64,000 nt of DNA from Burkholderia seminalis DSM 23518 (GTDB lineage Bacteria > Pseudomonadota > Gammaproteobacteria > Burkholderiales > Burkholderiaceae): positions 6,808 to 70,807 of the forward strand of contig NZ_CADFDK010000022.1 of assembly GCF_902832885.1 (NCBI RefSeq). Direction: 5' to 3'. How positions within the stretch are numbered: the stretch's first letter is position 1; each line of letters begins with the position of its first letter. Under the pieces are notes generated by a model that was not told the DNA's origin, did no database searches, and worked only from the letters and a program-made list of their open reading frames with translations. Shown here one piece after another: positions 4,616 through 27,277 of this stretch. Position numbers and translations under genes: made by a program.

Positions 4616-4689
4616 CGAGTCCTCCTTGTCCCTAGGATAAAAGAGAACTCACTTGCCGGATGGCTACAAGAAACGTCTCAGGTCACCAG

Positions 4690-4787
4690 CGCTTGCCGAG
4701 ATCGATTCCTAACGTGACCGAGTTCATGGCAGCCTCCATGGGTGGTAGCGCCACTACGATAGAAGAAGCGGGTGGACCATACCATTA
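4690..4787 (-). mobile_element. 98-bp right-end remnant of a second IS1111-type copy
   Basis: 4690-4787 matches 1950-2047 of the complete copy, including the start of the transposase gene, the subterminal repeat and the terminal ACCATTA. Everything to its left is missing, replaced by the IS3 element ending at 4685. Its right junction enters an IS3 orfB at GTCGCCGAT, the same codon position as in the complete copy. Confidence 0.88.
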
Positions 4788-9091: not shown

Positions 9092-9179
9092 GAAACCAGT
9101 TTAGGTCGCCGGGAAAGCACTAGCGATAAGATTATTTATCGCAAGTTCCGTAATAGGACATCCACCGTCAAACGTGTTG

Positions 9180-9352
9180 TCATCTATGGGAGCAGGTCAA
9201 CGGCTCGGGGCTACCTATACGGATGTTCTCGTACTCGCCGAAGCGTGGCGCAGACTCTATGCTGGCGTGCAGACCAAGCCGCGCCAACAGCGGCAGAATT
9301 GCATAGTCATGGCGCCCGCACGGAGTTGACCGGTCTGCAGTGCCAGGTTCAT
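9180..9352 (-). pseudogene. Frameshifted partner gene downstream of the antitoxin-like gene
   Basis: An ATG at 9352 overlaps the upstream stop (ATGA) and reads MNLALQTGQLRAGA, then ends after 31 codons. In the neighbouring frame the text continues coherently (HDYAILPLLARLGLHASIES..., FGEYENIRIG) to a stop at 9180. The simplest reading is a translationally coupled second gene, frameshifted near 9310 and perhaps truncated. No family is recognised. It may be the former toxin partner of the adjacent antitoxin-like protein. Confidence 0.4.
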
Positions 9353-9753
9353 CCGAGGAATCCGGCCTCGGCCATCTGCAGATACTTGATGGTCGCGTCC
9401 GCGTGCCCCTCAGACACGAGAGTCTGCGCCGTTTTGTAGTCAAACTCGCGCAGCGGCTCGTTCTTGAACCAGAAAATCGCACGCTCGACATCGCCTGAGA
9501 CGTCTGTGGCTGCGCGAAGCACGCGGAGCGTTTCGCGCAAAAAGCGCTGGATCGCCTCGGAATCCGGCGCACGGCTGATCGTGCTCCGATGGACATGAGC
9601 TTGCGTAGCGAGATCCTGCAGGTCGAGACGAAGCACGCTGCTGTAGCGACGCGGCGAAATCGACACCGGGCTGGCGGCGGTGTCATGCAGGTAGCTCAAC
9701 AAGGCGCCGAAATCAGCCTTGAACGTCGGAATTGCTGCAGCTCGAGCGGACAT
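9349..9753 (-). CDS. MbcA/ParS/Xre-type antitoxin-like protein
   Basis: 134 residues. The N-terminal half looks like a weak HTH (LDLQDLATQAHVHRSTISRAPDSEAIQRFL). The C-terminal part, FWFKNEPLREFDYKTAQTLVSEGHADATIKYLQ, is typical of the MbcA/ParS/Xre antitoxin toxin-binding domain (small hydrophobic core with a P-L...F..KTA..L...G). These proteins normally neutralise a RES-type NAD-consuming toxin and repress their own operon. No RES domain follows here; the downstream frame is broken. It is therefore probably an orphan that may still repress or protect. Confidence 0.7.
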   Translation of the reverse strand: MSARAAAIPTFKADFGALLSYLHDTAASPVSISPRRYSSVLRLDLQDLATQAHVHRSTISRAPDSEAIQRFLRETLRVLRAATDVSGDVERAIFWFKNEPLREFDYKTAQTLVSEGHADATIKYLQMAEAGFLG

Positions 9754-10198
9754 TTTGCGACCTCAATTCAACATAAATACGACGTAATAGTAGCGCAAAG
9801 AATGCTGGTTGGTTCAAGAGGCGAAGGGGTTGGTCGTAAGCGGCCAGCCAACCCGTCTTGAGTTTGGCCGGGGCGCTTGGGAGTATCGTGCCCACTTAAC
9901 GAATAAGCGGACACGTGAAGGCGAGGCGAAATAATCGGTCAGTGCATGTTAGCCGCGATGCTTCCGTCATGTGGAACAGACGGCTTGTCGACGGACGGAA
10001 TCATCAGATTGGCCGACGGGAAGCTTCGTCGCGCGTACGGCTCGGGAATGAGCTGGTGGCTGATCGGCATGCGGAGGGAATAGGAACGGAAGGGGGAGAT
10101 ATATTGGGGTCTTATCAAGAGCAATTTTTTCGAAGGCCCTTTCCGGTTTTTCGAAGTCGCTGCTATTTGAGTATATGAAGCGCTGAAAGGGAGGCCCT
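9754..10198. other. Divergent intergenic region upstream of the defence-like block
   Basis: 445 bp without a supported gene. Toward 9754 an A/T-rich stretch (ATAAATACGACGTAATAG at about 9773-9790) should hold the antitoxin promoter. Toward 10199 a strong ribosome binding site (AAGGGAGG, about 10187-10194) precedes the sigma-like gene, behind an A/T-rich segment at about 10095-10180 that could be its promoter. Confidence 0.5.
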
Positions 10199-10972
10199 AT
10201 GGCCCGACAATTGACGAAAAAAACGCTCGCCGGCGTGACGATGACCCGATTGCCGCAGGTGCAGGCTGAGGTCGAAGAACTCCTCGAATTGCCGGAGGCG
10301 GTGTTACTAGAGCGCGCGGCAATATCAACGAAAGGTTCGGAAGGCTACTGTAGTTCCGAGGCACTGGTCGCGTTGTATCGCGAGGCGTGTCGAAGCGGCC
10401 AGGCGACGGTGGTGAACGGATTGATCTCCCGACTCATGAGCCACTGCAGCAAGCTTGCCAAGCACAAGCTCTTCATACGCGGTATCGATTCGGAAGAGGC
10501 GGTCCAGAACGTCGTGGACAGATTCGTTGACTTGCTGGTCGCCGCGGCAGGGAATGAACATTGCGAGCAGCTCGATTTCTTCGAGGTGCTATTCGACAAC
10601 GCCGTTGCGTCGCTGGCTGCGAGCGAAGCGCGCCGTGCTCATGTCAGGCATTCACGGTCCTTGCCGATCGCCGAGGCGGCGGACGACGACGCACCGACTC
10701 GGGATCTTGCGGACCGAGGCAGGGCCGACCTGTCTTTGCCACTGGGGTTGACCGAGCCAGAGCGGGGCGTGTTCACCACGCAAGTGCTTGCTGAAATTGC
10801 GAATCTTCCTGAGGCGCAACGAACACTGGCCATCATGACGGTTCTTGGTGTTCAGAGTGAGTCGAACGACCCGATGGAACTGACCATTTCCGCCACGCTT
10901 GACGTCAAACCGAAGACGGTGAGGAACCGTCAGAAACGAGTCGCAGAGAAGCTCGTCAACTTTAAGGAGTGA
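10199..10972 (+). CDS. Sigma-70-like protein (region 2/4-type, divergent)
   Basis: 257 residues. The C-terminal portion (about 205-257: LPEAQRTLAIMTVLGVQ..., ISATLDVKPKTVRNRQKRVAEKLVNF) resembles a sigma region 4 helix-turn-helix. The helical middle (LISRLMSHCSKLAKHKLF..., AVQNVVDRFVDLLVAAAG) could be a region 2-like bundle that binds RNA polymerase. An excellent ribosome binding site lies 5 bp upstream. It opens a co-directional block and is followed at once by an unknown gene, then by the ubiquitin-like cassette. A role as dedicated activator of that block, or as a phage-transcription decoy, is inference. Confidence 0.6.
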   Translation: MARQLTKKTLAGVTMTRLPQVQAEVEELLELPEAVLLERAAISTKGSEGYCSSEALVALYREACRSGQATVVNGLISRLMSHCSKLAKHKLFIRGIDSEEAVQNVVDRFVDLLVAAAGNEHCEQLDFFEVLFDNAVASLAASEARRAHVRHSRSLPIAEAADDDAPTRDLADRGRADLSLPLGLTEPERGVFTTQVLAEIANLPEAQRTLAIMTVLGVQSESNDPMELTISATLDVKPKTVRNRQKRVAEKLVNFKE

Positions 10973-11611
10973 ATGATGACCATCAACAATCCTCAAGGCA
11001 AGCTGCAAATTGAGGAGGTGCTGTTGCAATTTGCAGCGGAGCGGGCGTTGCCGACCGCTGATCAGCTGAGCCACTACATTCGAGTGTTCCCTCAGTACAG
11101 GGATGAGCTCATCAATTTCGCAGCGTCGTTGGTCCATGATCAGTTCTCTGCGGAACCCGTCGAATCAGATGCCACCCGGTTGCTCGCTAGCCGCGCCGTG
11201 AGCCGCTTCCATAATCTTCGCTTCGAGCAAGAAAGGGCGCGGGCCGGACAGGTGTCGAAAAAGGTGGAAAACCCCATTGCGCCCTTGTCGCGCACGGACT
11301 TCGGCAGTCTCGTTGACGCGTTGGGTTTGCCAAAGCAAGTGGTGACCAAGCTACGAGACCGAAAGATCAGTTTTTCGACGATCCCGAGCGGTCTTATCGA
11401 TGTGCTAACTCACAATCTGAAGGTCGCGCGGGATGTTACCGTTTCTCATCTGATGGCGAGACCGGAGGTGGCAAGACTGGCCACTTCGTCGTGCACATCC
11501 AGCGGGTCAACGTCCAACAAGCAGGAATCGTTCGATGAGGCTTTACGGCATGCTGGACTGTCTTCAGCTGAAATTTCAGTGCTCATGAAACGCTTTGCCG
11601 GCGAGCATTGA
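10973..11611 (+). CDS. Unknown protein paired with the sigma-like factor
   Basis: 212 residues, no family recognised. An N-terminal helical motif (about 14-50, LLQFAAERALPTADQLSHYI..., QYRDELINFAASLVHDQ) looks like a small protein-interaction module. A middle part follows (PLSRTDFGSLVDALGLPKQVVTKLRDRKI), and a serine/threonine-rich linker precedes a final helical segment (ESFDEALRHAGLSSAEISVLMKRF). The start follows the sigma-like stop directly, with AAGGAG 3-6 bp ahead of two possible ATGs (10973, 10976). Tight coupling suggests a partner, for example an anti-sigma-like regulator; this is not shown by the sequence. Confidence 0.6.
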   Translation: MMTINNPQGKLQIEEVLLQFAAERALPTADQLSHYIRVFPQYRDELINFAASLVHDQFSAEPVESDATRLLASRAVSRFHNLRFEQERARAGQVSKKVENPIAPLSRTDFGSLVDALGLPKQVVTKLRDRKISFSTIPSGLIDVLTHNLKVARDVTVSHLMARPEVARLATSSCTSSGSTSNKQESFDEALRHAGLSSAEISVLMKRFAGEH

Positions 11612-12067
11612 TCATCGATTTTCCATTCCCTTCGAGGGTGTTCCACTTTTGACCAATCCTCCCATCAGTCTGACACCGAGCTATCGTACCTCCAGTTGGA
11701 CTTCTGTCGGCCATGAAACGTGCAGTCACGCGCGCGTCATGGCCGACCAGATGCCATCGTGCAAGCCTCCTGACACGATTCCCTCTCTCGTTCCCCTTTG
11801 ACTCGATCGTAGGCATTGCTACGTGCTGGCTTATGTGCCGGGATTCGCCGTGCTCACGTGCCTGGAGCGGGTGCCGTTCGATGTTTCCGGGATAGCAGCG
11901 GTGCGGGCTGGCCAATGGGGAGCGTGCTCGCGGGTTGCTGATTCCTTGAGTGACCTGAGAAAAAATGTGCCGCGTGACTTTCCGGTTTTTGTGAATCGAA
12001 GCGATTTCCCTTGTGAAGGCCATCATCAGCGCTCGGCTGGTAAGGTCAACGATAAGGATAGCGAATC
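11612..12067. other. Intergenic region upstream of the ubiquitin-like cassette
   Basis: 456 bp. Open frames on both strands here lack recognisable domains and ribosome binding sites. The end (AAGGATA at about 12054-12060) provides the Shine-Dalgarno for the Ubl gene. The length suggests the cassette has its own promoter or regulator site, separate from the sigma-like pair. Confidence 0.45.
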
Positions 12068-12541
12068 ATGACTATTTTTTACCAAATGCAAAGCTGTCGC
12101 GAGGTTCGGAGTCTGGATGTGGTCGAAGGCATCACGCTGGCTGAACTGGTCAGCGCGGTGTCCGCGGGCGTGGTTGAGCAATTGAAGGTATTCGAAGAGG
12201 ACGGCGATCTGATGTTGACGGAGGAACGGCTGATAGTGGTTCTGCGCGACAAGCGTCATCCGAAGCTGCATTTCCACCCTCACTGCGAGGTCAAAGTGGT
12301 GGTTCATTTTAATGGCAGGGTGATCGAGCGCTTGGCGTCGCCTGCGATAACCGTCAGCCGCCTGAAGCAGTGGGCTGACAGCGAGTTCGGCGTCGATCCC
12401 GTGCACGCCGCGGAGCACGTGTTGCAGTTGAGCGGGACGACCGAGCGCCCGATGGGCTCGACCCACGTGGGTGCGCTCACGCAGCACGGCAGCCACTGTG
12501 TTTCGTTCGACCTTGTGCCGAACGAGCGCTTCCAGGGGTAA
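12068..12541 (+). CDS. bilA: Tandem ubiquitin-like protein, BilA-type modifier
   Basis: 157 residues. Two beta-grasp-like units can be traced. The first spans about 1-70 (V-x-EGITLAELVSAV..., DGDLMLTEERLIVVL). The second spans about 72-157 (CEVKVVVHFNGRVIE..., LKQWADSEFGVDP, ALTQHGSHCVSFDLVP). The architecture recalls ISG15 and the bacterial BilA modifier. The protein ends in Phe-Gln-Gly, so a C-terminal glycine is already exposed for adenylation and transfer. Assignment rests mainly on gene order: E2-like, JAMM protease and E1 genes follow directly. In studied Bil systems the modifier is attached to a phage tail protein and spoils virions; that role is inferred here. Confidence 0.78.
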   Translation: MTIFYQMQSCREVRSLDVVEGITLAELVSAVSAGVVEQLKVFEEDGDLMLTEERLIVVLRDKRHPKLHFHPHCEVKVVVHFNGRVIERLASPAITVSRLKQWADSEFGVDPVHAAEHVLQLSGTTERPMGSTHVGALTQHGSHCVSFDLVPNERFQG

Positions 12542-12544
12542 GAC

Positions 12545-13033
12545 ATGGACGCCGCTCAACCGAGCTTGACCCCCGACGCGCGCGCCTTTGGTGCGGATGT
12601 CGCGGCAGCGCCGTTCTGCCTCGGTGAGGTGGGCGGGAAGTGGCGTTTGCGAGAGATCGTGTGGCCGAAAGCACTGATCGACGTAACGGCGTCCGTCGGT
12701 ACCTTCAGTTTGCGCTTTGACCTCAGTGGCTTCCCGGTTCAGCCGCCGACCGCTCAACTCTGGGACCCGGTGGCCAACTGCCCACTACCGTTTCACCGAT
12801 GGCCGCGTGGTAAGGGCGGGCGAGTCAGCGACGTATTCAGATCTGACTGGCAGCACGGCACGGCGCTTTATCTCGCCTGTGACCGGGTGACGATCATGAC
12901 GCATCCCAACTGGGTTACCCAAATGCCAACCAGGCTTTGGCGGACCAACGGATCCATCGTTCAGTATCTCGAGGAAGTTTATGTCCTTCTCAATTCGGAA
13001 GACTATTCGCCGCCTTTGGTCGCCGCAGCATAG
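12545..13033 (+). CDS. bilB: E2-like ubiquitin-conjugating enzyme, BilB-type
   Basis: 162 residues starting 3 bp after the Ubl stop. The UBC-like fold shows a beta-rich N-terminal half ([22 protein letters not shown]), then W-rich [22 protein letters not shown]. The likely catalytic cysteine is Cys112 in [10 protein letters not shown], followed by the helical end [17 protein letters not shown]. Bacterial E2s of this class carry a C-D-R type active site in this place. It should accept the activated Ubl from the E1 and pass it to a target. Its 3' end overlaps the next gene by 53 bp if that gene uses its first ATG. Confidence 0.78.
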
Positions 13034-13496
13034 GGTGGTATGCAACGTCTGGCTGTGGCATCGATTGGTGCGCGGACTGCGGCACCGCAGCGACGGACAT
13101 AGGGAGAGTGGTGCTTTCCTGCTTGGTGATATCGACGGCGAGGTGCGCACGATAACGAACTTCGTGATGTATGACGACATCGATCCACATGCACTCGATA
13201 GTGGATACGTCCATATCGATGGTCGCCATATGGGACGTCTCTGGGCGCTCTGTCGTGAGCAAGGCGTGTCAGTGGTTGCGGATATCCATACGCATCCGGG
13301 TGGATACGGCCAGAGTGACACGGACCGGCAAAACCCGATGGTCGCGGTAAGAGGGCATATCGGAATCATCGTGCCGGAGTTCGCGGCGCGAACGGTGTCC
13401 AGGCAGAACCTGGGCATCTATGTGTACCAGGGGGCGCACAAATGGGATGAGGTCGGCGAGCACCGAAATCGGAAATTCATGTACATCGGCTTGTGA
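12981..13496 (+). CDS. bilC: JAMM/Mov34 metalloprotease (deubiquitinase-like), BilC-type
   Basis: 171 residues from ATG 12981. A GTG at 13035, directly after the E2 stop, is an equally good start and would leave the whole domain. The zinc and catalytic residues of the JAMM motif are present: Glu42 in [10 protein letters not shown], His103 and His105 in [10 protein letters not shown], and Ser112 and Asp115 in QSDTD. Family members process or remove ubiquitin-like modifiers. Because the Ubl already ends in glycine, deconjugation is the more likely job here. The gene overlaps the E1 gene region at its stop (GTGA). Confidence 0.85.
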
Positions 13497-13504
13497 GGGA
13501 AATC

Positions 13505-14869
13505 GTGACCAACCAATTCGAGGCAGAGTCGTTGCACCGTACAGTCAAGCGACTGGTTGATAGTGGGCGAGCGAAGTCTTTCGACGAAGCGCAGGCTATA
13601 GCCGAAGGATTTCGCCTTCACCTTGACCTGTCGGCGTCACGCTGCCTGCACGAGCAGATCGCAGCGATTGCACTTGTGGAGTTGGGGCGACGTGCGTTCC
13701 TTGGTGGCGTATCCGTATCGGGAGCCCTTGATGTGGCGCTTCACCACACGCTTGGCGATGAGACCTTGCTGCGCGACGCGCTGACGCGTGCAGGTGCGAG
13801 TGCGGCGGAACCGGCAGACGGTGTTCCGATCATCAAGGTCGGCGCCGCCGGTGATCCGCGTTCGCGGTTTCATCTCCGCCTTCTCATGGCGGGCTGGCGC
13901 GCAGGCGTGGCCCCGGTGAATGAGCCGTTCGAGATGGTCGCGGCCAGCGAGGAATACGTCATGCCGCTTGCCACAGTGGCATCCGCGGCGTTGGCGGTGA
14001 GTCAGGCGTTTCGTTACGTCAGCGACGGATATAGCGCTGGGTCAGAAGTCATTGGCCTGTCGCTATGGGCTCCTGGGGCATTGGCTTGGTCGGCTGCGCA
14101 CGCCGACGGACCTAGGCTGCAAGTGCTTCCCTCGTCTGTGTGGTTACTGGGATTGGGACACCTGGGGCAAGCATTTGCATGGTGTTTGAGTCTACTGCCG
14201 TATCCGCCCGGAAAGGGCAAGCGGCCACGTCTGCTTCTGCAGGACACGGACGTGGTTGGCGCTTCGACGGAAAGCACGTCGGTGCTCACGAACGCGGATC
14301 ACATGAACCGCCAGAAGACCCGGGTCGTGGCCGACTGGATGGATCGTCAGGGTTTCGCCACGAATATCGTGGAGCGCGGTTTCGATGCGTACACGCGGCG
14401 CGGCACCGATGAACCTTCGCTGGTTTTCTGCGGCGTCGACAATCCGGAAGCCCGTCGCGCGCTCGACTCTGCCGGCTTTGGCTTCATTGTCGAAGCCGGA
14501 CTGGGAAGTCGGTACGACGATTTCCAATGTCTTCGTGTGCACACGTTCCCGGCCACTCGATCGACGGCCGAAACCTGGGGGCCGCGTCCGCAGCAGCCAG
14601 AGCCAGTACTTAATGGGGCCTATGCGGTATTGATGGCGCGGGGCGCTAATCGTTGCGGCGTCGTTCAACTGGCGGGAAAGGCGGTTGGTGCGGCATTTGT
14701 CGGTGCTTTTACGGCCGCGCTCGCAGTCTCGGAGGCCCTGCGCGTCCTTCATGGGCACGCACCGAGTGAAGTGGCAGACATTGATATGTTCGCGCTGGAG
14801 TGCCGCAGCGTTGTCCAGAATCGCCGGGATCATCGTTGTATCAATCCTGGGTTCATTGCAGTCGAGTAG
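13505..14869 (+). CDS. bilD: E1-like ubiquitin-activating enzyme (ThiF fold), BilD-type
   Basis: 454 residues from GTG 13505 (AGGGA 4 bp upstream); GTG 13493, overlapping the JAMM stop, is an alternative. An alpha-helical N-terminal domain of about 200 residues precedes a ThiF/MoeB adenylation domain. That domain has a Rossmann loop in VWLLGLGHLGQAF, the acidic motif LLLQDTDVVGAST, an Asn/Arg/Lys set in NADHMNRQKTRVV, and FCGVDNPEARRAL. It would adenylate the Ubl C-terminus and load it as a thioester; the active cysteine cannot be fixed by eye. It completes a four-gene cassette in the Bil order. Confidence 0.82.
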   Translation: MTNQFEAESLHRTVKRLVDSGRAKSFDEAQAIAEGFRLHLDLSASRCLHEQIAAIALVELGRRAFLGGVSVSGALDVALHHTLGDETLLRDALTRAGASAAEPADGVPIIKVGAAGDPRSRFHLRLLMAGWRAGVAPVNEPFEMVAASEEYVMPLATVASAALAVSQAFRYVSDGYSAGSEVIGLSLWAPGALAWSAAHADGPRLQVLPSSVWLLGLGHLGQAFAWCLSLLPYPPGKGKRPRLLLQDTDVVGASTESTSVLTNADHMNRQKTRVVADWMDRQGFATNIVERGFDAYTRRGTDEPSLVFCGVDNPEARRALDSAGFGFIVEAGLGSRYDDFQCLRVHTFPATRSTAETWGPRPQQPEPVLNGAYAVLMARGANRCGVVQLAGKAVGAAFVGAFTAALAVSEALRVLHGHAPSEVADIDMFALECRSVVQNRRDHRCINPGFIAVE

Positions 14870-14920
14870 TTCGGTCAGGCGTGACGCTTGCAAATAAACC
14901 ATGCAGAAGGAAACTTATCA

Positions 14921-15634
14921 ATGAGCCGCTACGAGAACACATCGGTCAAGATCAAAGGCGTTGGCAACCACGTCGGAGACAAGGTCAAGGTTACGAACAA
15001 CCATGTGACCAACAACATGTATCGTGAGCCGCCGAAAAATGGTGGTGGTCCGCCGGACGGATTGTTGCCCATCGCGTTTCTGGCGTTGCTGGTCGTCTGG
15101 TTTTTCTTCCGCCACTTCGAACAGATTGAATCGCTTCTCAAGAACGCGAGTGTTGTGGCGATCATCCCGAGTGCATTGGCATCGCTCATCGCATTTGGGC
15201 GGGATCGCGATCTTGCGCCCACGACGCTGGCTCTCCTTCCAGCCACTGGTGCGGCGCTAACGGCGTACCTGCTGCTCGGGATCATTCACAACAACGTACC
15301 GCCGCAGATCCTGGCATTTGCCGCGACCGCAGCGGCCGGCAAGTTCTGGGCGACTTTGATCCGGGAAGACTTCCAGGTCGTGGTGCAGAACGGCGGCGCG
15401 ATTGCGCTATGCGTTTTTGCAATTGCCGTCAACGGGCTTGCAGGGCTGCGTGCGTTCGCGGCCACTAATAACAGCTGGTGTGGATGGCTGTGGACGCTGA
15501 CGTGGCGTTATTCTCCCGTACGGCATCTCTGGAGCCAGTTCATGTTGTTGGGCGGGGCGCTGCTTTTGACGACCGGTCGCGCATACGAACTGTTCGTCTG
15601 GTTTCAGGAGGCCATGCGAGCCGCGTTAGCGTGA
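14921..15634 (+). CDS. Multi-pass membrane protein of the Bil/Iet block, unknown
   Basis: 237 residues from ATG 14921 (GAAGGAA about 10 bp upstream). The first 45 residues are polar with a repeated beta-like pattern (SVKIKGVGNHVGDKVKVTNN) ending in a Gly/Pro-rich linker. Five or six hydrophobic segments follow: LLPIAFLALLVVWFFF, VVAIIPSALASLIAFG, LALLPATGAALTAYLLLG, ILAFAATAAAGKFWA, AIALCVFAIAVNGLAG and FMLLGGALLLTTG. It is placed between the E1 and the AAA ATPase genes, all in one direction. It could be a membrane effector or an anchor for the conjugation machinery. No family is recognised. Confidence 0.65.
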   Translation: MSRYENTSVKIKGVGNHVGDKVKVTNNHVTNNMYREPPKNGGGPPDGLLPIAFLALLVVWFFFRHFEQIESLLKNASVVAIIPSALASLIAFGRDRDLAPTTLALLPATGAALTAYLLLGIIHNNVPPQILAFAATAAAGKFWATLIREDFQVVVQNGGAIALCVFAIAVNGLAGLRAFAATNNSWCGWLWTLTWRYSPVRHLWSQFMLLGGALLLTTGRAYELFVWFQEAMRAALA

Positions 15635-15729
15635 GAGCGTGCCGGTGTCGTCTAAGGAAGCGGGCAAACAGGCTGACCACGATGGGACTGCTTGACGAAA
15701 TGAGTGTCATGTAGTCTCATCTGCACATT

Positions 15730-16911
15730 TTGGTCGGTTTCATGCACGTGAAGTCCTCAAAATTGCACATTTCAGGCGTGCTTCAAGAGCTCTGTGGCGC
15801 TGCGATGAGCGCGCCGGGCGGGACAGAGCTCGTACAGCGTCTGGCGGACGAACTTTTGAGCGCGGGGCACGCGAGGGAGGCGGAAACAATTCGCAAGCTT
15901 GTCCCGTCGCCTGAAGCCAGGGAGCCCGCCGCAGACGCCCCAGATGGGGCCTCATCGCTGCTTGCTGGCGAGCCGCTGACGCGCAGTTCGCGAGTACCCG
16001 TCGATCGGGAAACGGCGGCACCGGTCGCCACGGTCCTGGTGGCCACGTCAATGCCGGAAGTCAGCCCGATCTTGCCCGACGCCTTATCGACGGCCGTGAA
16101 TACCTGGGTGACAGAGTGGAGCCGTGCCAGCGAACTGAAGGCAGTCGGCATTGAACCCGCGCGGAGTTGCGTATTGTTCGGTGATCCTGGAACCGGTAAA
16201 ACCGAACTCGCGCTCTGGCTGGCGCGTCAGATGAAATTGCCGGTCATCCTTGCGCGATTGGACGGCCTGATGTCGTCCTTTCTAGGGACGACCTCCCGCA
16301 ATATTGGTAATTTGTTCGCATTCGCGAATCGTCATCGTGCCTTGTTGATTCTGGATGAATTTGACGCAATCGCGAAGCTGCGGGATGACCCCAATGAAGT
16401 CGGTGAAATCAAACGCGTCGTTAATACGCTGCTTCAAAACCTGGACGAGCGCGCCCGTCACGGACTGACTATAGGTATTACCAATCATCCCCAGTTGCTG
16501 GATCCCGCGGTCTGGCGCCGGTTTGAGTTGCAAATTGAGATGCCCAAGCCGGATCAGCACGCACGAACGAAAATCATCGAACGATACGCGAAGCCACTCG
16601 AATTTGGTCGTGCGCAATCGAAGTTGCTCGCGTGCATTTTGGAAGGCGCGTCCGGCGCTGAAATTCAAGACGTAGTTAAGTCGCTAAAAAAGAGTTGGAT
16701 TTTGGATGGGGTGAATGTATCCTTTGCCGAGCGTCTGCAGACGGTGATTTGCACGCATGCGGCGAGAGTGCCGAAGCAAGCGATTGAAATTGTTAATACA
16801 CCGTTGAAAGAATTTGCTCGAGTCGTGCTTGAGCGATATTCATTCACAACTGTAGAGGTGGGCGAAATATTTGGTGTCAACAGGACAACGATAAGCCGCT
16901 GGGTGACTTGA
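15730..16911 (+). CDS. ietA: AAA+ ATPase, IetA-like
   Basis: 393 residues (Met5 at 15742 is an alternative start). A Pro/Ala-rich N-terminal region precedes one AAA+ module: Walker A GDPGTGKTELA, pore-loop region LARLDGLMSSFLGTT, Walker B LLILDEFDAI, sensor ITNHPQLLDP and arginine finger WRRF. The C-terminus ends in a helix-turn-helix (TVEVGEIFGVNRTTISRWV). An AAA ATPase followed by a large S8 protease is the IetAS arrangement, known from Ti-plasmid incompatibility and reported as an anti-phage system. It probably remodels or delivers proteins to the protease encoded next. The gap of 16 bp suggests one transcript. Confidence 0.8.
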   Translation: MVGFMHVKSSKLHISGVLQELCGAAMSAPGGTELVQRLADELLSAGHAREAETIRKLVPSPEAREPAADAPDGASSLLAGEPLTRSSRVPVDRETAAPVATVLVATSMPEVSPILPDALSTAVNTWVTEWSRASELKAVGIEPARSCVLFGDPGTGKTELALWLARQMKLPVILARLDGLMSSFLGTTSRNIGNLFAFANRHRALLILDEFDAIAKLRDDPNEVGEIKRVVNTLLQNLDERARHGLTIGITNHPQLLDPAVWRRFELQIEMPKPDQHARTKIIERYAKPLEFGRAQSKLLACILEGASGAEIQDVVKSLKKSWILDGVNVSFAERLQTVICTHAARVPKQAIEIVNTPLKEFARVVLERYSFTTVEVGEIFGVNRTTISRWVT

Positions 16912-16930
16912 CCCGGCACCGGGGAAAGTG

Positions 16931-19558
16931 ATGGCTGCGGACTATCCGCTGTTGTATGTGTCGAATCCGTCGGCTTTGCAGCGGGATCGAAAGACGACCC
17001 CAGGCGGAAAAAAGACAGATTTCTACGCCGATCGCGATGCCGCATTCGCGGCACATCGCGCATCCATTACCAACAGTATTCGAACGATCCAGGCGCAGCT
17101 TGGTGAGAGCAGCGCGCGTTTCGGTCTATCCGGATTCGTCAAGGTCCGCCTTCAGGAAAAGGCTTGGGCGAAATCCCATCGCCCCGTCCAAAGGCTGTTT
17201 ACGCGAGACACGGCACCGGTTGTTGGCGGGGCTGACATAGGGGAGCTCGTCGTTCGTGCTGATGGTGCTGGGTTGAGCCGGGTGATTGAGAGGATCGAGG
17301 CGGCCGATGCGAACACGAAGCGCCGGCTCGACAAGCACGGTGACCTCGTTTTAAATCCAAATCGCGAGCGGTCCGAACTGGGCGCGCTGGAAAATCTTCA
17401 CCTGTGGTCAGCGGCGGACCGCCGTGTTCCGGACGCGAAGCACGCCGTCGGGCGGCTCAATGAGCAGAAACTGGCGCCCATGTATTCGGTGCGCTTTTTC
17501 GAACCGATTTCGGACGCGTTGGCTAAGCTTCAGTCGATGCCCGCTGCGCTGCGATCCGCTGATCAGCCCGCTGACACGTTTGTCCGTTCGCTGGCCGAAC
17601 TCAGTCGTTCCTTGGGCATCTATGTCGTACTCGAGAACGGGCTCGAGTCGATTTCATCGGCATACATTGGTTTGACGGAGTCTCCCGGCTTTGCCGTGCT
17701 GGACGGTTTTGCCGCGTTATCAAAAGTTGGCGAGCAACTGCGGGTCGACGGAGATTACTCGTTGAATGCGCATCGGGCCTTGTTGGCGCTACTGGGCGAG
17801 CATCCCGACATCCGGACGGTTGCGATACCGCAGTCGTTTGTCACGGATCAGCGCTCCCCGCTTGTCGAGGCTGCAGTGGGCCAGAGAATCCAGCGGACTT
17901 CAACGGTTGTTTCATTGCTTCCCGCCGAGATTCCCGAACCGGTCGAGCGCGTTACTTATCCCACGGTCGCGGTCGTTGACGGCGGCATCGCGAATACGTT
18001 GGGTAGTTGGGTCAAGGCCGTTTATGGTGGCATCCCAGAAAACCACCGCGATCTTGAACATGGAACGTACATTGCTGGATTGCTGGTCGGTGCTCGGGAG
18101 CTCAATCCTGAGTATGGGGCGCGCCTGGAAGACGACGGTTGCTGGCTGATCGATATTGCTCTCCAGACCAAGGACGCATTTGCAGGGGAATACTATGAAA
18201 ACGGTTCGGCAAAGTTTCTCGACAGTCTCGATCAAGTTGTCGGGGAGTGTCGACGGAACCATCCCGTGCGTGTCTTTAATTTCAGTCTGAACAATCAAAC
18301 TGCAGTTTCACAAAGTGATTTCAGTGAGGAGGCAATCTGGCTTGATGAGATTGCTCGTCGTCACGACGTGTTCTTTGTGATCTCGGCAGGTAATGCTATA
18401 GGCAGCGATGCGCGTCCGGAATGGGACGATAACCTGATGAATGCGGCGATTCAACTTATTGAAAGCAGGTCGGATACGCTTCGGGGCCCTGCGGATTCGC
18501 TGATGAACGTCTCGGTCGGTGCGACCAACGGCCAAGGTGTGCCCAATTGCATCCCGGATGCGCCAGCTCGATATAGTCGTCGTGGCCCAGGCGTGCGGGG
18601 ATCGGTGAAGCCTGACATCTGTCACATTGGCGGCGCGGATACGACTGACGTGTCGGGACTGACCGGGCTGGCTAGCGTCACCGAGGATGGCTTGGTGGCT
18701 GCAGTGAAGGGCACCAGCATGGCGGTCCCCTTGGCGGCCAAGACATTGGCCCAGCTCGACCTCGAGTTGGGGCATGAGGCTCGGCGCGAGATCGTGCAGG
18801 CCATCTTTCTTCACAACACGTATTTTCCTGCGCCACTACGCACTTTGAAGGCACGACGCGTGGGCCGAGGACTGGTCGGCTTCGGCTATCCGCGTCCGAG
18901 TTCGGAAACGCTGATTTTGAATAGGCACACGTTCGGCGTGGTCGTATGCGACAACCTGAAAAAGGACGACAACTGCGTGATCGATTTCAGGTGGCCGCGC
19001 GAACTCGTTGATGCCGAAGGGCGTTGCCGAGGGATTGCTCGTCTCACCCTGGTCTACTCGCCGCCGCTTGATTTTGATTACGGTGCTGAGGCGGCACGTA
19101 TCAGCCTGGTGCCTTCACTGCGCCAGCGAGAGGATGAGACGCAACCACGCGACGTCAGCGAGGATGACGAGGAGGAGGATGAAGAATCGGAAGATGCCAC
19201 CAAGGTCGGGTGGATCGGCAGGATCAATCCGGTTCATTCGCGTGGCTTGAAGCGCACGTCACGTGAGTCGGCCTTGCTGTTGGATGGACTCAAATGGAGT
19301 CCCGTCAAGGTGCTGGAAGGCAGTTTTCGCGGCATCGGCCGCTCGGCCGAGTGGCGCATGACCGTCAATTATGTCGCGCGGAATCAGGTGGAGTTTCCCG
19401 AGGACGGGGTTCCGTTTGCGGCGGTGTTGACGATTACAGATCCGGACGGCAAAGCGAACGTCTACGAGGATCTCAAGCAGGAACTGGTGGCGAATTCGGC
19501 CACCGTGTTGAACGACATTCGAATCGCGCTTCGTGTGCGTTCGCGGACGCAGCGGTAG
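16931..19558 (+). CDS. ietS: Subtilisin-like (S8) serine protease, IetS-like
   Basis: 875 residues from ATG 16931; a GTG directly before it is also possible. An N-terminal domain of about 340 residues without known fold precedes an S8 catalytic domain. Asp350 lies in AVVDGG, His377 in EHGTYIAGL, the oxyanion Asn488 in ISAGNA and Ser596 in KGTSMAVPLA. A C-terminal extension has an acidic stretch (SEDDEEEDEESEDA) and a beta-rich end. There is no signal peptide, so it acts in the cytoplasm. The length and pairing with an AAA ATPase match IetS. All catalytic residues are intact; it probably degrades host or phage proteins once triggered. Confidence 0.83.
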   Translation: MAADYPLLYVSNPSALQRDRKTTPGGKKTDFYADRDAAFAAHRASITNSIRTIQAQLGESSARFGLSGFVKVRLQEKAWAKSHRPVQRLFTRDTAPVVGGADIGELVVRADGAGLSRVIERIEAADANTKRRLDKHGDLVLNPNRERSELGALENLHLWSAADRRVPDAKHAVGRLNEQKLAPMYSVRFFEPISDALAKLQSMPAALRSADQPADTFVRSLAELSRSLGIYVVLENGLESISSAYIGLTESPGFAVLDGFAALSKVGEQLRVDGDYSLNAHRALLALLGEHPDIRTVAIPQSFVTDQRSPLVEAAVGQRIQRTSTVVSLLPAEIPEPVERVTYPTVAVVDGGIANTLGSWVKAVYGGIPENHRDLEHGTYIAGLLVGARELNPEYGARLEDDGCWLIDIALQTKDAFAGEYYENGSAKFLDSLDQVVGECRRNHPVRVFNFSLNNQTAVSQSDFSEEAIWLDEIARRHDVFFVISAGNAIGSDARPEWDDNLMNAAIQLIESRSDTLRGPADSLMNVSVGATNGQGVPNCIPDAPARYSRRGPGVRGSVKPDICHIGGADTTDVSGLTGLASVTEDGLVAAVKGTSMAVPLAAKTLAQLDLELGHEARREIVQAIFLHNTYFPAPLRTLKARRVGRGLVGFGYPRPSSETLILNRHTFGVVVCDNLKKDDNCVIDFRWPRELVDAEGRCRGIARLTLVYSPPLDFDYGAEAARISLVPSLRQREDETQPRDVSEDDEEEDEESEDATKVGWIGRINPVHSRGLKRTSRESALLLDGLKWSPVKVLEGSFRGIGRSAEWRMTVNYVARNQVEFPEDGVPFAAVLTITDPDGKANVYEDLKQELVANSATVLNDIRIALRVRSRTQR

Positions 19559-19577
19559 TTTTCTCGGATAGCTAGAA

Positions 19578-21059
19578 ATGACGTCGAACACCCAAAAATA
19601 CATCGTTATGACCGCGACCGTCGAAGGTTCGACGTTTGTCGGTCCGTTTCAACGTTCCAGTTTCCAGAGCGGAGGCGTCACGGCTCTTCTGCGCAATGCG
19701 TTTCCGGCCGGTGCAAACATTCCTGTTACGTCGTCCGCGGTCGATGATGTTGCGATGCTCGAGTTGACCGACGACCAGGCGCGCTCGTTCGAGGTCGCTA
19801 ACGGAGCGATCAAGTTACATCCGGTTCGAACGTATCGTCTCGCAGCGATCGAAATCGACCGCGCGTTGATGGCGGCCGGCCCGTACTCGTTTGGCATCGT
19901 GCCCCAGGTAACGAACACCCCATTTCGCATTCGAGTGGAGGGCCCCCGTGGTCAGCCTGTCGCGAACGCGGGGGTCGTTGTCTGCGAGTGGGGAACGAAT
20001 AATGTTTTGGAGGGCAAGACGGACGCCACCGGACATGCAACGATTCCCACGGGAGTCGGACTTGCTAATTTTGTGAGAGTCACGCCGTTTGCTGATTTCT
20101 GGGGGCAGTCCAAATCCGGGATCATGGCGATTCACGGGCCTGTCGTCTTCACGCTTGATGCGCTTGATCCAACGTATGTCGATAGCTTCAAGTTCCATTA
20201 CCCGCCGAATCAGCCGCTGCAGGGCGGGACGCAGGTGGGTCGTCGGGTCAAGGTGGCCGTGATCGACACGGGGGTGGACGACCATCCGGATCTTGGCAAT
20301 GTAACCCATCGCATTTCTCACACGCAGGCCGACGATGCGGACGATCTGGGTGACAACGGTACCGGGCACGGGACACATGTCGCTGGAATCATCGGGGGCC
20401 GGGGGCGCGTGAGCGGGCTTGCGCCGAATGCAGAGTTGATGAGCTTTCGCGTGTTCGAGCGTGACGCCGTAGAGGCGGACACGCTGTACATATTTGAAGC
20501 GGTTCGCAATGCCGTGGATCACGGTGCCGACATCATCAATCTGAGTCTCGGGCAGGAAAAGGTCGACGACGTGCTTGAATCGGCGATCAAGTACGCTGAA
20601 GAGAACGGCGTACTGGTTGTTGCAGCCTCCGGCAACGACGGGCACAGTGCCCCGGTATTTCCCGCTAGCTATCCGGAGGTAGTTTCGGTCGCGGCCGTTG
20701 GGCGATCTGGTACATTCCCGTCTGGCTCGGTGCACGCAAGTTGGCCGAAACGGGCGAAGGGAACCGACTCGAAGGATTTCGTGCCCGCGTTCTCGAACCA
20801 TGGAAAGGTCGAACTGGCAGCGCCCGGCGTCGCGGTCATATCGACCGTCGGTGTTAGCGGCTATGCTGCAAAGGACGGGACGTCAATGGCGTGTCCGATC
20901 GTCTCCGGTTTCGCGGCGCGGTTGCTTGAGACTGCGCCTGAGTTGGCAGGACGACCGCGTTCCTCTGACCGTTTGGTCGACCTGAAGTCGTTGCTGTACA
21001 AGACATGTAATTCGCTTGGGTTCGATAAATTTGACGTAGGGAGTGGATTGCCTCACTGA
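19578..21059 (+). CDS. Second subtilisin-like (S8) protease
   Basis: 493 residues, starting 19 bp after the first protease. The N-terminal part (1-105) looks propeptide-like (TATVEGSTFVGPF..., LELTDDQARSFE). A segment at about 115-195 has a carboxypeptidase-regulatory-like beta sandwich (RVEGPRGQPVANAGVVV, GKTDATGHATIP). The S8 domain has Asp230 (VAVIDTGVDD), His264 (GTGHGTHVAG), Asn353 (ASGNDG) and Ser436 (KDGTSMACP). There is no signal peptide. It is not part of the usual two-gene IetAS pair. A protease cascade with the upstream enzyme, or processing of the Ubl system, is possible but inferred. Confidence 0.82.
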   Translation: MTSNTQKYIVMTATVEGSTFVGPFQRSSFQSGGVTALLRNAFPAGANIPVTSSAVDDVAMLELTDDQARSFEVANGAIKLHPVRTYRLAAIEIDRALMAAGPYSFGIVPQVTNTPFRIRVEGPRGQPVANAGVVVCEWGTNNVLEGKTDATGHATIPTGVGLANFVRVTPFADFWGQSKSGIMAIHGPVVFTLDALDPTYVDSFKFHYPPNQPLQGGTQVGRRVKVAVIDTGVDDHPDLGNVTHRISHTQADDADDLGDNGTGHGTHVAGIIGGRGRVSGLAPNAELMSFRVFERDAVEADTLYIFEAVRNAVDHGADIINLSLGQEKVDDVLESAIKYAEENGVLVVAASGNDGHSAPVFPASYPEVVSVAAVGRSGTFPSGSVHASWPKRAKGTDSKDFVPAFSNHGKVELAAPGVAVISTVGVSGYAAKDGTSMACPIVSGFAARLLETAPELAGRPRSSDRLVDLKSLLYKTCNSLGFDKFDVGSGLPH

Positions 21060-21072
21060 TCGGAGCTGCGTC

Positions 21073-21288
21073 ATGAGTCGATATTTGCTGTTTTTCAAAG
21101 GATCCGGTGACATCCCGCAGGATGACCTTCGGACTATTCGGGACCACGCTGGAGTGACGGTCCTGGACGTGCGGCCATCAAAGACTTTGGTCCTCGAACT
21201 GGACGGTTGCGCGGGCGACTTTCTTGCGGACGTCGGCAAGATGAAAGACTGGGTAGCCAGCGAGCAAAGAAAGTATCGATTGAACTAG
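21073..21288 (+). CDS. Small protein, possible I9-type protease inhibitor/propeptide in trans
   Basis: 71 residues from ATG 21073 (GGAG 9 bp upstream), starting just after the second protease stop. The pattern RYLLFFKGSGDIPQDDLRTIRD, then VTVLDVRPSKTLVLELDG, then a C-terminal helix suggests a beta-alpha-beta ferredoxin-like unit like the inhibitor I9/propeptide of subtilases. Its place directly after an S8 gene supports a role as inhibitor or folding helper that keeps the cytoplasmic protease quiet. The family assignment is by pattern only. Confidence 0.55.
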   Translation: MSRYLLFFKGSGDIPQDDLRTIRDHAGVTVLDVRPSKTLVLELDGCAGDFLADVGKMKDWVASEQRKYRLN

Positions 21289-21662
21289 GGCCCGTGCCGC
21301 AGTTGGAGCAACGCCGATTGTGATGGTGCGTCGAACTCGGCTACTGTGCCCGTTGGCCCATTGCATCGATTAGTGGATGCCGTCGTACCAGGCGGTGCTC
21401 CCCATGTAGGTTTGCCCGAATGGATCCGGCATAGTGCGGGTGCAGCGTGCGGTGCTATGCGGACTCGCGGGCGAATTCGACGACAACTTGATTGGAATTG
21501 TGATTAATCAAGCGTTAGAGTATTTGCGACACGGGTTCCGGCATCGCGACGGTCGCGGGAAGGATGTCGAGATAGAGCATGTCGCTGCAGGAGTCGCAGA
21601 GACGTTGCTTTGGTTCACGGCCGGGCCGCGCAACTTGTCGAGCCGGGGTTGGGGTTGCGGCC
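21289..21662. other. Intergenic, end of the defence-like block
   Basis: 374 bp with only short overlapping frames on both strands (for example 21434-21670 plus, 21515-21703 minus) that show no domain. The co-directional block ends here. No clear terminator hairpin was found. Confidence 0.4.
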
Positions 21663-22094
21663 ATGCGTAAAGCATCTGACAGGGCGCGCCGTACGTTGAG
21701 CAAAGCGCATCTCTTGCCGTTGCCTGCTGCGCAAGTGCGACGACTGTCACTGAAGCACCATTGCGCGCTCGCTTCATTGCTGAACGGGCACGGTAGTGTC
21801 GATGGAATTGTGACGCTGTCGAATGTACTGGAACTGGCGTTCCGATTGCGCGACGAAAGGGAGACGGTGCTGTACCGCGAGGCGCAGGCGGCCTTGAGTG
21901 CGTGTGTCGAGCGAGCGGGGCGCGGCGATGCATGGTGCGCAACTGATGACGAACGAAGAGCGCTCGAAGCGTTGCTCGTCGCGCACGACGTTCAGCTCGC
22001 GTCGGTACCGGTACATCGTTACCTTGATGCGCTGGAGCGCGTGCAGCGTGAGTGTGCGTTGGGTGTCAATTTTGCGATTCCCGAGCACGATTGA
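21663..22094 (+). CDS. Small hypothetical protein (helical)
   Basis: 143 residues from ATG 21663 (MRKASDRARR); a longer reading from 21579 has no support. It is mostly alpha-helical: LSLKHHCALASLLNGHGSVDGIVTLSNVLELAFRL, TVLYREAQAALSACVERAGRG, DDERRALEALLVAHDVQLASVPVHRYLDALERV. Proteins of this look, with a basic N-terminus and a central LANVLNVAW-like helix, are frequent on Burkholderiales and Pseudomonas mobile elements, but their function is unknown. Confidence 0.5.
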   Translation: MRKASDRARRTLSKAHLLPLPAAQVRRLSLKHHCALASLLNGHGSVDGIVTLSNVLELAFRLRDERETVLYREAQAALSACVERAGRGDAWCATDDERRALEALLVAHDVQLASVPVHRYLDALERVQRECALGVNFAIPEHD

Positions 22095-22227
22095 GTGCAG
22101 ATGAATCGATCGCGGCAATTCAAGCTTCCGCATCGCGCCCGTGTGCCTGTGAATCGGGCCGAAATTCGGGATCGCGCACGCTTTTAGACTGAAGGTGTGC
22201 CACGAGGTAGAGGGTAAGTTATTGATG

Positions 22228-23192
22228 TTATAGGTATTTTTTTGAATTCGTTGGTATGTTCCACGCCTCATAGAGTAGTTTCCATCCGGCCGTGGGATGT
22301 CGACTTTCTTCGATCTCCGCGTGCAGCGCTTTCCAGGCATCGTTCCAGCGCAGCTGGGCACTCCATTCTCTAGCAAATTCCTTGAGAAATCGGCGGTCAG
22401 GTAGACGTCCTGAGCTGCCGAAGCGGCTGACGCCGTTATCGAAACGATTACTTCTCTGCCAATTTCGCTTTGCGACCTCTTCCATTTTGACGAGCAGCCG
22501 CGACTTCCGGCGTCTTTTCAGGGGGGGCGGGGTACCAGTGGTATCTGCGCCTCGTGTGCAAGGACGTATTGATTCAATGGACCACTGATGTAGCGAAACA
22601 CCGGGTCGTCTGTCGTCTCTACGGAATGAAGATGTGCAATTGCGCGAGCCCATTCTTGCTGCTTCGCTTCTGGTGCGTGCTCGAGGATAGCGAGGCGGTA
22701 GTGCGCCCATGTGCGGACGTGTTCAAGCGCGGGCATGCCTGGCAGGGGCTCTTCTAGCAGGCTCAAGATACCCCTCACGAACTCCACAGAAACGCCACCC
22801 TCGATCAACTCCCAGATCGGAGAGGCCGACCATAGGTGAGCTATGACACCGCCCGGTAGCTCTCGGATGGCTGCGGTCAGGTTCTGCCCATATTTGCCTC
22901 GCGGGCCCGGACGCGGTTCACGTTCCCCCCGCAGATATTGATAGAAGATCTTGCTGTTACTCGTAGCATGGCCAGGCGGTTCATTTCCGCAGGCTGTTCG
23001 ATCCCGGTTGAACAAGTTGCTCAACCACGACGCAGTTCTATGCGTATAGATAACAGCAGCTGCGGCATATGCCATCCCCCGTAGTCCTTCCAGCCGACGA
23101 CGCATCGGCACCTTTCTTTTGTCTTGTACGTCATCGGGAGGCGACTGCAGCTTTCGCCAGTACCGAGATTCGTTGAACGACGGGTGATTCAT
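22228..23192 (-). pseudogene. Hypothetical gene broken (or switchable) at a C7 tract
   Basis: From ATG 23192 a frame reads 224 codons (MNHPSFNESRYWRKLQ...) and stops at 22518, immediately after a run of seven C on the minus strand (22521-22527). In the next frame the text continues without a break (KRRRKSRLLVKMEEVAKRNW..., AWKALHAEIEESRHPTAGWK) to 22228. One extra C would join them into a protein of about 321 residues. No family is recognised; the first part is rich in aromatic residues and helices (MPALEHVRTWAHYRLAILEH). It is either a pseudogene, an assembly error or a phase-variable gene. It points away from tnsA. Confidence 0.55.
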
Positions 23193-23755
23193 CTGTTTGA
23201 GCAGATTCGCGAAAAGAACACAAATACACCATTACACACTAGTGAAAACCACTATGAATATCGGCCAATTCTTGTTCTCCGAGGTGTCCCTATTTTTTTA
23301 AGTCCGTTTTTTTACTATTTTCACCACGTTTACTAAGCTGCCCAGCAGTGAATGCGTGTCGAGCTCTTGCCGCCAAAGGCGAGATTACATGGTGCCCTTT
23401 AATGGGTGCCGCGGAGGAAACGCTATGGACGAACCTTAATTGCTTGGCTGAAAGGAAAAAAGGCCTCTGGGCGGCAACCCAAAAAGGCCTTTTCGGAACT
23501 GCATCGAATTGTGGAAATCGACAGTCCCATCCTAGTCGGCCCTTCCCACGGAGTCAAGCGAGCCCCGATTTTTTTGAAAAATCGTGGGGGGGCGCTCGTC
23601 CCAACGTACCTCGAGTTGCGCGCGCATCAAATATCGTCGTACCGATCAGCGGTTCAGAGCGTCTGGTCACTGCGGGTTGTACCTCGCCTAAACACGCCGC
23701 GCGCAAGCTCGTCGACTTATGCCGTAAGTCCGTATTGGTAATGGAGGGCATCATC
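23193..23755. other. A+T-rich region upstream of tnsA, candidate transposon end
   Basis: 563 bp between two divergent genes. 23221-23340 is strikingly A+T-rich, with oligo-T runs (TATTTTTTTAAG, GTTTTTTTAC) and inverted GTGAAAA/TTTTCAC units (about 23242 and 23319). In Tn7-like elements tnsA lies next to one transposon end carrying several TnsB-binding repeats, so this is the natural place for that end. No exact TGT...ACA terminus could be fixed. The reading frame continues upstream of 23756 but has no domain content there. Confidence 0.45.
23455..23494. terminator. Strong hairpin with A/T flanks, terminator-like
   Basis: GAAAAAAGGCC (23455-23465) pairs with GGCCTTTTC (23486-23494), and an inner TGGG/CCCA stem sits in the loop. 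With oligo-A on one side and oligo-T on the other it could stop transcription in either direction, shielding tnsA from upstream transcription. Confidence 0.45.
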
Positions 23756-24739: not shown

Positions 24740-24809
24740 AGCTACGCTTTCAGTCAATGGGAGGCACTGTCGAGCGCTTCACATAGACCATTTTCCGACT
24801 GGAGGTGAT

Positions 24810-27200: not shown

Positions 27201-27277
27201 GGAGGTAAAAATAAGGATGACATGATGTGGAGTTGAGAGGGTGGCGTAGTAAAAATTTACAAATTAGGAATGCTATC

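Follow-up and report, generated by a model that had tools for sequence, protein, structure and literature searches.

Both the ubiquitin-proteasome and the Pup-proteasome systems consist of tagging enzymes, a AAA ATPase and a protease. Bacterial ubiquitin-like systems tag phage proteins, and the tag acts by itself in the parts of the literature covered here. In Collimonas, Bil attaches a ubiquitin-like protein to the central tail fibre of the phage, and defective particles are formed (PMC11364771 and PMC12948488, available parts). In the part covered of the review PMC11354881, bilABCD are described with no mention of helicase, sigma factor, IetAS or subtilisin. IetAS, the association of a AAA ATPase and an S8 peptidase, has been linked to phage resistance, by a mechanism not known according to the available part of PMC11878078. 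The DNA described in this work is a stretch of 64,000 nucleotides (the window) from Burkholderia seminalis DSM 23518, contig NZ_CADFDK010000022.1, positions 6,808 to 70,807. Eleven co-directional genes with intact active-site motifs occupy its positions 10199-21288, plus strand, in the order sigma-like protein, partner, bilA, bilB, bilC, bilD, membrane protein, ietA, ietS, a second subtilase (S8b) and a protein of 71 amino acids (aa) (Table 1). As in the ubiquitin- and Pup-proteasome systems, tagging enzymes are found with a AAA ATPase and a protease. Unlike them, the block has no proteasome gene, its proteases are of the subtilisin type, and degradation that depends on the tag is a proposal. 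The eleven genes almost surely form one unit; that this unit is one immune operon, whose tagging system has the protease arm as its effector, is the interpretation we favour, with some reserve.

None of the matches listed, as judged from titles and abstract beginnings, describes Bil together with IetAS, with the sigma-like pair or with its box; this scope does not include the two founding papers on Bil or the paper on the structure of Bub, which may mention such neighbours. A similar principle is known in other immune systems, which acquire nuclease-protease pairs (PMC12799240; Bil and IetAS are unmentioned in the part available). PMC1779556, in the part available, mentions neither 'helicase' nor 'sigma factor'.

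Table 1. Genes and boxes of the block, in window coordinates
Feature	Position	Strand	Basis
Promoter-like two-part box before the sigma-like gene, TTTCCGGTTT-N12-GCNATTT	10140..10168	+	Genome pattern search; aligned in 5/5 loci
Sigma-like protein, 257 aa, C-terminal region-4-like helix-turn-helix	10199..10972	+	Profile vs PDB
Partner of the sigma-like protein, 212 aa, probably helical	10973..11611	+	Position after the sigma-like gene
Second box copy, before bilA	11979..12007	+	Same genome pattern search and alignment
bilA, ubiquitin-like modifier, ends at conserved Gly157	12068..12541	+	PADLOC BilA 1e-40
bilB, E2-like, invariant Cys112 and His120	12545..13033	+	PADLOC BilB 1e-52
bilC, JAMM peptidase, invariant E42/H103/H105/S112/D115	12981..13496	+	PADLOC BilC 5e-67
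bilD, E1-like, invariant GxGxxG and Cys388	13493..14869	+	PADLOC BilD 2e-148
Membrane protein, 237 aa, about four membrane segments, N-terminal Gly/Asn-rich motif	14921..15634	+	Hydropathy; relatives' alignment
ietA, AAA+ ATPase, Walker A and B	15730..16911	+	PADLOC PDLC02195 1e-130; Pfam AAA
ietS, S8 peptidase, D351/H378/N489/S597	16928..19558	+	PADLOC PDLC02199 5e-208
S8b, second S8 peptidase, 493 aa, D230/H264/N353/S436	19578..21059	+	Pfam Peptidase_S8 1e-44; PADLOC 'subtilase' PDLC03014
71-aa protein, ferredoxin-like fold, candidate propeptide-type inhibitor of S8b	21073..21288	+	AlphaFold

A unit of eleven genes

A sequence-only reading of the window had reported ten same-strand genes. 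The block lies where it was placed, but the genes are eleven. The identification of Bil and IetAS was sound: bilA-D follow one another in order, ietA and ietS are adjacent, and PADLOC models for the six products match over nearly their full length. The same reading had the subtilases as cytoplasmic, and one product as a membrane protein. Both hold as predictions, since a hydropathy scan (19 residues, threshold 1.6) reveals no membrane segment in IetS, S8b, IetA or the sigma pair, and at threshold 1.4 about four in the membrane protein. Intergenic gaps measure, in gene order, 0, 456, 3, -53, -4, 51, 95, 16, 19 and 13 bases; the starts of the membrane protein (ATG 14921) and of the last gene (21073) have been corrected to the most likely ones given the extent of the relatives' alignments.

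The residues listed in Table 1 are invariant in all aligned relatives of BilA (13/13), BilB (11/11), BilC (10/10), BilD (9/9), IetS (7/7) and S8b (6/6), as are the Walker motif residues of IetA (7/7). The invariant Bil, IetA, IetS and S8b residues are taken as catalytic, as is usual for these families. Catalytic residues of BilB and BilD are also named in PMC11354881 (part available), where a CEHH motif (Cys, Glu at +6, His at +8, His at +13) is drawn around the Cys of the studied BilB. Judged from its translation alone, the window BilB fits two of these four positions (Cys112 and, at +8, His120), and has Met at +6 and Thr at +13.

Conservation was assessed in 398 genomes of the host's family. 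BilD matches at an expect value (E) <=0.001 in 113 of them, and the 11 with E<1e-100 were kept as carrying full BilD. The remaining 102 matches (best 1.2e-18, most <30 bits) were left out as fragments or, we think, ThiF/MoeB-type proteins. All eleven genes, adjacent and in the same order, were found in five of the 11 full-BilD genomes (that of the window, G213, G239, G266 and G295; G and L numbers denote genomes and loci), from four genera. These are called protease-type loci hereafter. The gene order proposed as a check by the sequence-only reading thus recurs in four further genomes, one with broken frames, and this argues for a unit, beyond chance. Three of these further blocks are also known from other searches. 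A genome scan for close BilD relatives retrieved two, each complete and ordered (44-73% identity), from Pandoraea cepalis (taken to be G239) and Paraburkholderia silviterrae (contig NZ_SMRP01000004.1, taken to be G213). The third (taken to be G266) is on a plasmid of Cupriavidus sp. EM10, with the frames of ietA, ietS and S8b broken. There (L004 / L052) each Bil gene matches in one piece beside the broken genes, and either decay or sequencing error may be involved.

IetS matches (E<=1e-20) were found in 10 of the 398 genomes. A separate search of the family sample, with limit 1e-25, gave 4 of 398, including the window's. Full BilD and IetS coexist in five genomes, where the margins (11 and 10) would predict 0.28 (Fisher p=1.3e-6; 2.4e-5 when the genome of the window is left out; relatedness being uncorrected and the five spanning four genera). 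IetS hence resides in 5/11 Bil genomes, and the two halves cannot be said to be rarely together. IetS proteins with >50% identity all reside inside the block (5/5), and the other five (about 30-38%) outside. Pairwise identities across the five loci range from 29 to 92%, and the eleven genes correlate at r 0.74-0.99. The four unbroken loci have their genes similarly spaced, except for the partner-bilA gap (456-888 bases).

The sequence-only reading had also considered that the genes might be just neighbours in a defence island, held together by shared mobility. Defence genes cluster in general, and the block is bordered by a tyrosine recombinase (7319-9091) and transposases on the left, and by Tn7-like genes on the right. 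However, the flanking recombinase and Tn7-like genes are unmatched in the other four loci, where the eleven genes stay ordered. The co-divergence just described, and boxes occurring at two places only in the genome (see below), do not fit this explanation either, which we regard as largely refuted and deserving hardly any credit.

Head genes, boxes and helicase-type relatives

A profile of 20 sigma-like sequences matches sigma-E in the PDB (1or7, E=1e-7), through the C-terminal half. FixJ/NarL-type and other helix-turn-helix regulators score nearly as well, and NCBIfam sigma70-ECF gives 13.5 bits against a cut-off of 42.9; the protein is therefore named sigma-like only. The partner gene follows the sigma-like gene in 17/17 loci aligned. 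Its product has no match in Pfam, PADLOC or NCBIfam, and its AlphaFold model is too poor to be used (predicted local distance difference test, pLDDT, 51). No match in PHROGs was found for the sigma-like, partner, membrane or 71-aa proteins (E<=0.1). The pair recalls CapK+CapS and CapW, regulators which head Bub, Bil and CBASS operons (PMC13373217, part available). These carry STAS, GHKL, WYL or peptidase domains, whereas the window pair has none (Pfam E<=1) and resembles sigma region 4.

Fifteen relatives of the sigma-like protein were identified in the 398 genomes by profile search, and 14 of them head a ubiquitin-like operon, most with a helicase in between; the weakest relative (G083) showed no such operon. 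Nine of the 14 operons are Bil and five multiubiquitin-ThiF-DUF6527 (G044, G120, G265, G292, G297; DUF6527 is unmatched in G292). Multiubiquitin operons with this pair at their head also occur outside the family sample, on plasmids of Acinetobacter, of Agrobacterium and of Leptolyngbya, a cyanobacterium. Multiubiquitin operons share with the window the sigma-like pair, usually have the helicase, and some adjoin IetAS, but their ubiquitin-like protein and E1 are different, and BilB and BilC have no match. The sequence-only reading had assumed a private sigma-like factor. The factor is present and heads the block, but is not private, since it heads many Bil and multiubiquitin operons. In turn, the pair is absent from two of the 11 full-Bil genomes (G364, G141).

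The six full-BilD genomes other than the protease-type lack the S8b, membrane and 71-aa genes; four are headed by the sigma-like pair, all with a UvrD-family helicase. Among the Bil loci examined, the sigma-headed ones outside the block host this helicase between partner and bilA. Such helicase-type loci (L005-L008, L010, L012-L015, L047-L050 and, as regards head, helicase and Bil genes, L074), exemplified by plasmids of Rhizobium, Xanthomonas and Roseovarius, have in common with the window the sigma-like gene, the partner, bilA-B-C-D in order and, in most cases, matching boxes before the sigma-like gene and bilA. They differ in that a helicase of ~1100-1150 aa precedes bilA, at the place of a 456-base gap in the window. 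The sigma-like gene was assigned by place and alignment in L008 and L012-L015, as it has no direct match there. In L011 the head is shortened, and helicase and Bil follow it; L009, L016, L055, L056 and L083-L085 have neither helicase nor sigma match in the stretch taken. Plasmid Bil neighbourhoods were taken for 14 of 36 matches, plus a fifteenth (H35, that is L074); a further plasmid set comprised 9 neighbourhoods of 73 records. The membrane protein, S8b and the 71-aa protein have no match in the helicase-type Bil loci examined. A search for helicase remnants in the 456-base gap gave nothing beyond chance (best E 0.35 for the window).

In a midpoint-rooted BilD tree of 26 loci, the five protease-type loci form one clade (support 0.994) among the sigma-headed ones. 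Support for the next of kin of this clade is low (0.33). Of the seven loci that lack the pair, six fall into a separate group (support 0.985). The simplest history would be loss of the helicase and a single gain of the protease arm. A third form of head is found on the CF1 plasmid of Paraburkholderia caffeinilytica, which shares the four-gene bilA-D with the window but carries helix-turn-helix and ImmA/IrrE genes, taken here as a CapH+CapP-like head. BilC is said to trim BilA, exposing the C-terminal glycine (PMC11354881, part available). BilA ends exactly at the conserved glycine in the five protease-type loci (5/5), and a short tail follows it in three of eight helicase-type BilA (L005, L006, L014). 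Only the tailed BilA would therefore need trimming, in contrast to protease-type BilA.

In the five protease-type loci the sequence TTkCCGGTTTTT, followed after ~10 bases by GC.AT or a close form, is found before both the sigma-like gene and bilA. The pattern given in Table 1, searched with <=1 mismatch, has exactly two sites in the 7.97-Mb genome, and the reversed-pattern control none; as the pattern was built from those two sites, both are found by construction, and the result is that nothing else was found. A weight matrix derived from the ten protease-type sites scores the window boxes 39.8 and 33.4 bits. No other site on the plus strand at 9700-22000 exceeds 8.7 bits, and there is thus no such box between bilD and ietA. 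Predicted sigma-70-type promoters and terminators at 9700-22600 (4 and 12 sites) are no more abundant than in shuffles (4.4 and 13.8), and are therefore uninformative; no Rfam family reaches its gathering score at 9000-23000.

The boxes extend to the helicase-type loci. The regions upstream of the sigma-like and ubiquitin-like genes are more alike than random windows of the same locus in 11 of 15 such loci (p<=0.05; combined 3.8e-13); the match in L011, among the 11, is not the box, and L010 (0.058), L013, L050 and L074 fell short of the threshold. Applied to 22 helicase- and multiubiquitin-type loci outside its training, the matrix detects a box (p<=0.05) upstream of 13 sigma-like genes and of 10 ubiquitin-like genes, with ~1 expected for each; the sigma-side site of L010 differs from its paired box, and the match in L069 is AT-rich. 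It counts against the interpretation as one operon that the random windows are mostly coding, and that the p-values of both tests are flattered thereby. Mixed-locus pairing avoids this bias: in 13 helicase-type loci, own upstream pairs gave 290 matches and mixed-locus pairs 247 (p 5e-5, the lowest value that 20,000 shuffles can give), so that boxes match within a locus beyond a general likeness of upstream regions. By eye, L006 has two copies of GCGATCA, and L007, L047 and L049 have two each of GCGACTT. Paired boxes are not clear in the five multiubiquitin-type loci tested (L070 has no ubiquitin-like match): L073 alone reaches p<=0.05, by an AT-rich match which is not the box, and box-like sequences are found on the ubiquitin-like side alone. 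Given the sigma-E profile match and the paired boxes, the sigma-like factor probably reads the boxes. The pair and its matching boxes provide a handle on how the operon is switched on, and a route to new operons via their head genes. In P. silviterrae (L053) three copies of the box stand in a row before bilA (7983, 8099, 8213), possibly a repeated promoter.

IetAS pairing and the role of the protease arm

The window IetAS resembles known IetAS in having adjacent genes and intact motifs. It differs in being embedded in a ubiquitin-like operon, and is ~30-38% identical to the family IetS outside the block. Scores with the NCBIfam equivalogs IteA and IteS are far below the cut-offs (268 vs 510 and 253 vs 900 bits), and the pair is therefore regarded as a diverged subfamily, and not filed as an IteA/IteS equivalog. 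IetAS adjoins eight of the 14 sigma-headed ubiquitin-like operons. In five it lies downstream, in the block (frames are broken in Cupriavidus). In G130 and G292 it immediately precedes the operon, on the same strand, and in G265 it is on the opposite strand, ~1.7 kb off. G120 has a C-terminal IetAS piece only. The ietS stop and the longest sigma-like frame of G292 overlap; in this genome, where IetAS is upstream, the helicase between sigma pair and multiubiquitin gene is reduced to short fragments (L111 6571-6922). IetAS also precedes the sigma pair on the Xanthomonas plasmid L007. Three IetS subfamilies can be told apart, 24-28% identical where aligned (35% for Xanthomonas vs G292), so the association with ubiquitin-like operons arose more than once. 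An order-wide search (E<=1e-40, 399 genomes) added three distant IetS matches. It is conceivable, and is put forward tentatively, that bacterial ubiquitin-like operons recruited IetAS at least three times as a protease arm acting on tagged targets.

In the model proposed, the sigma-like factor would switch on its own gene and the bilA promoter via the dedicated two-part box, and the partner would, as our guess, restrain it. A single transcript starting at the bilA box would encode the Bil conjugation machine and, downstream, the protease arm. BilD and BilB would put BilA on phage proteins, and BilC would remove it. IetA would unfold or remodel either the tagged target or an assembly stalled by tagging, and IetS would cut. 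The 71-aa protein would hold S8b back until the system fires, and S8b may cut or release the membrane protein, with damage to the infected cell. We infer sigma activity, the single transcript, the coupling of tag and protease, the inhibitor role and the membrane step. The different parts of the model deserve different trust. Functional coupling of tagging and protease is, in our opinion, rather probable. Degradation of tagged proteins by IetAS or S8b is plausible, but that tagged targets are actually degraded is proposed with less confidence than coupling itself. The same caution applies to the whole scheme, a proteasome-free tag-and-destroy immunity in which Bil would conjugate targets to be handed to IetAS, complemented by an inhibitor-guarded S8b, a membrane effector and one sigma-like switch. 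Sequence alone does not distinguish tagging as a trigger from tagging as a mark for destruction. Still, eleven genes kept together in several related bacteria, apparently under their own switch, suggest that bacteria may possess their own form of tagging coupled to the destruction of proteins. An operon joining tagging to a AAA+ protease, and the repeated pairing with IetAS, make proteasome-independent, tag-dependent proteolysis for defence directly testable.

Several observations do not favour this interpretation. Collimonas Bil is reported to obstruct the tail fibre, and in our reading no protease is required. IetA and IetS are similar in length to stand-alone copies. Four of the ten IetS-positive family genomes (G168, G308, G323, G356) showed no ubiquitin-like gene in the 20-kb stretch taken, so that IetAS persists there, and perhaps works, without tagging. 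The annotated neighbourhood of P. caffeinilytica Bil contains no sigma pair, helicase or protease arm. The helicase-type Bil loci L007 and G130 have IetAS too, and helicase and IetAS are thus not mutually exclusive. The block may accordingly be viewed as a co-regulated operon of two independent defences, Bil tagging and blocking virion assembly, IetAS and S8b obeying a trigger of their own, with only the sigma switch shared. The solitary IetAS of those four genomes, the Bil core of P. caffeinilytica, which is without IetAS, the separate listing of Bil and IetAS in PADLOC, and the varying regulators and partners around Bil are all in line with two defences. The joining of ubiquitin-like operons by three diverged IetAS subfamilies is not, nor is the presence of the protease arm in a single Bil clade, at the very place from which the helicase is absent. 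Repeated joining, and replacement of the helicase in one clade, suggest an effector slot rather than a random second system. Two defences under one switch are, on balance, an explanation we doubt, but take seriously.

The last gene is pertinent to how S8b may be controlled. The AlphaFold model of the 71-aa protein (pLDDT 84.7, one extra N-terminal residue included) has the order strand-helix-strand-strand-helix-strand. Subtilisin propeptides share this topology. The fold is a common one, and the resemblance unspecific, as many ferredoxin-like folds score alike, which again weakens the model. Among the best 50 Foldseek rows there is one subtilisin propeptide (8gkq, E 0.12) with many other ferredoxin-like folds; among the best 50 VIA-align rows there is none. 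No Pfam family, I9 included, matches the 71-aa protein. The protein was also tried as a relative of the N-terminus of S8b itself, and discarded (profile comparison, probability 0.2). In 72,556 plasmid records, the 71-aa protein (E<=0.1) and the membrane protein (E<=0.01) match only in the Cupriavidus block.

A different use of the tag can be imagined, in which conjugation of, or near, the 71-aa inhibitor frees S8b, the membrane protein is processed into a pore, and degradation of phage proteins is secondary. The restriction of the 71-aa and membrane proteins to this block and the propeptide topology agree with it. So does, by eye, the YRL end of the 71-aa protein, which is similar to the end of the N-terminal region of S8b, and also a Paracoccus subtilase with an 84-aa neighbour of similar pattern. 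On the other hand, the protein has no Pfam family, its structural match is unspecific, the profile comparison with the S8b N-terminus failed, and distant S8b relatives (31-35%) are found on plasmids outside Bil, where S8b thus needs no tagging. We deem such a cascade improbable, and prefer the protease arm as effector of the tagging system.

The Paracoccus subtilase (33% identical to S8b) and the 84-aa gene which follows it (L076 6770-8576) are perhaps a stand-alone protease-inhibitor pair. A Gly/Asn-rich stretch at the N-terminus of the membrane protein (window 14921-15040) is present in all five loci; the motif is NTSVxINGxGNHVGDxVxVTN-like in four and looser in G295. It is reminiscent of amyloid-type signalling motifs.

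Surroundings of the block

To the right of the block, window 23348-31508 contains a TniB-type ATPase and two TniQ genes, all by Pfam, and a TnsA- and TnsB-like gene recognized by eye. These are likely Tn7-like transposition genes, in a stretch of about 50% GC surrounded by 57-70%. A search for Tn7-like ends around the block gave no convincing inverted repeats in the stretches tried. To the left, on the minus strand, the tyrosine recombinase carries DUF3701, and a gene at 9349-9753 has a weak MbcA/Xre-type antitoxin match. An Rv2179c-like exonuclease-type gene, below the Pfam cut-off, is found at 6720-7238, and a copy of it, 54% identical (L086 5657-6121), lies ~2.7 kb from the stand-alone IetAS of G168. 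Several transposase/integrase-core genes of different insertion sequences, some of them short, and a resolvase occupy window 139-5282.

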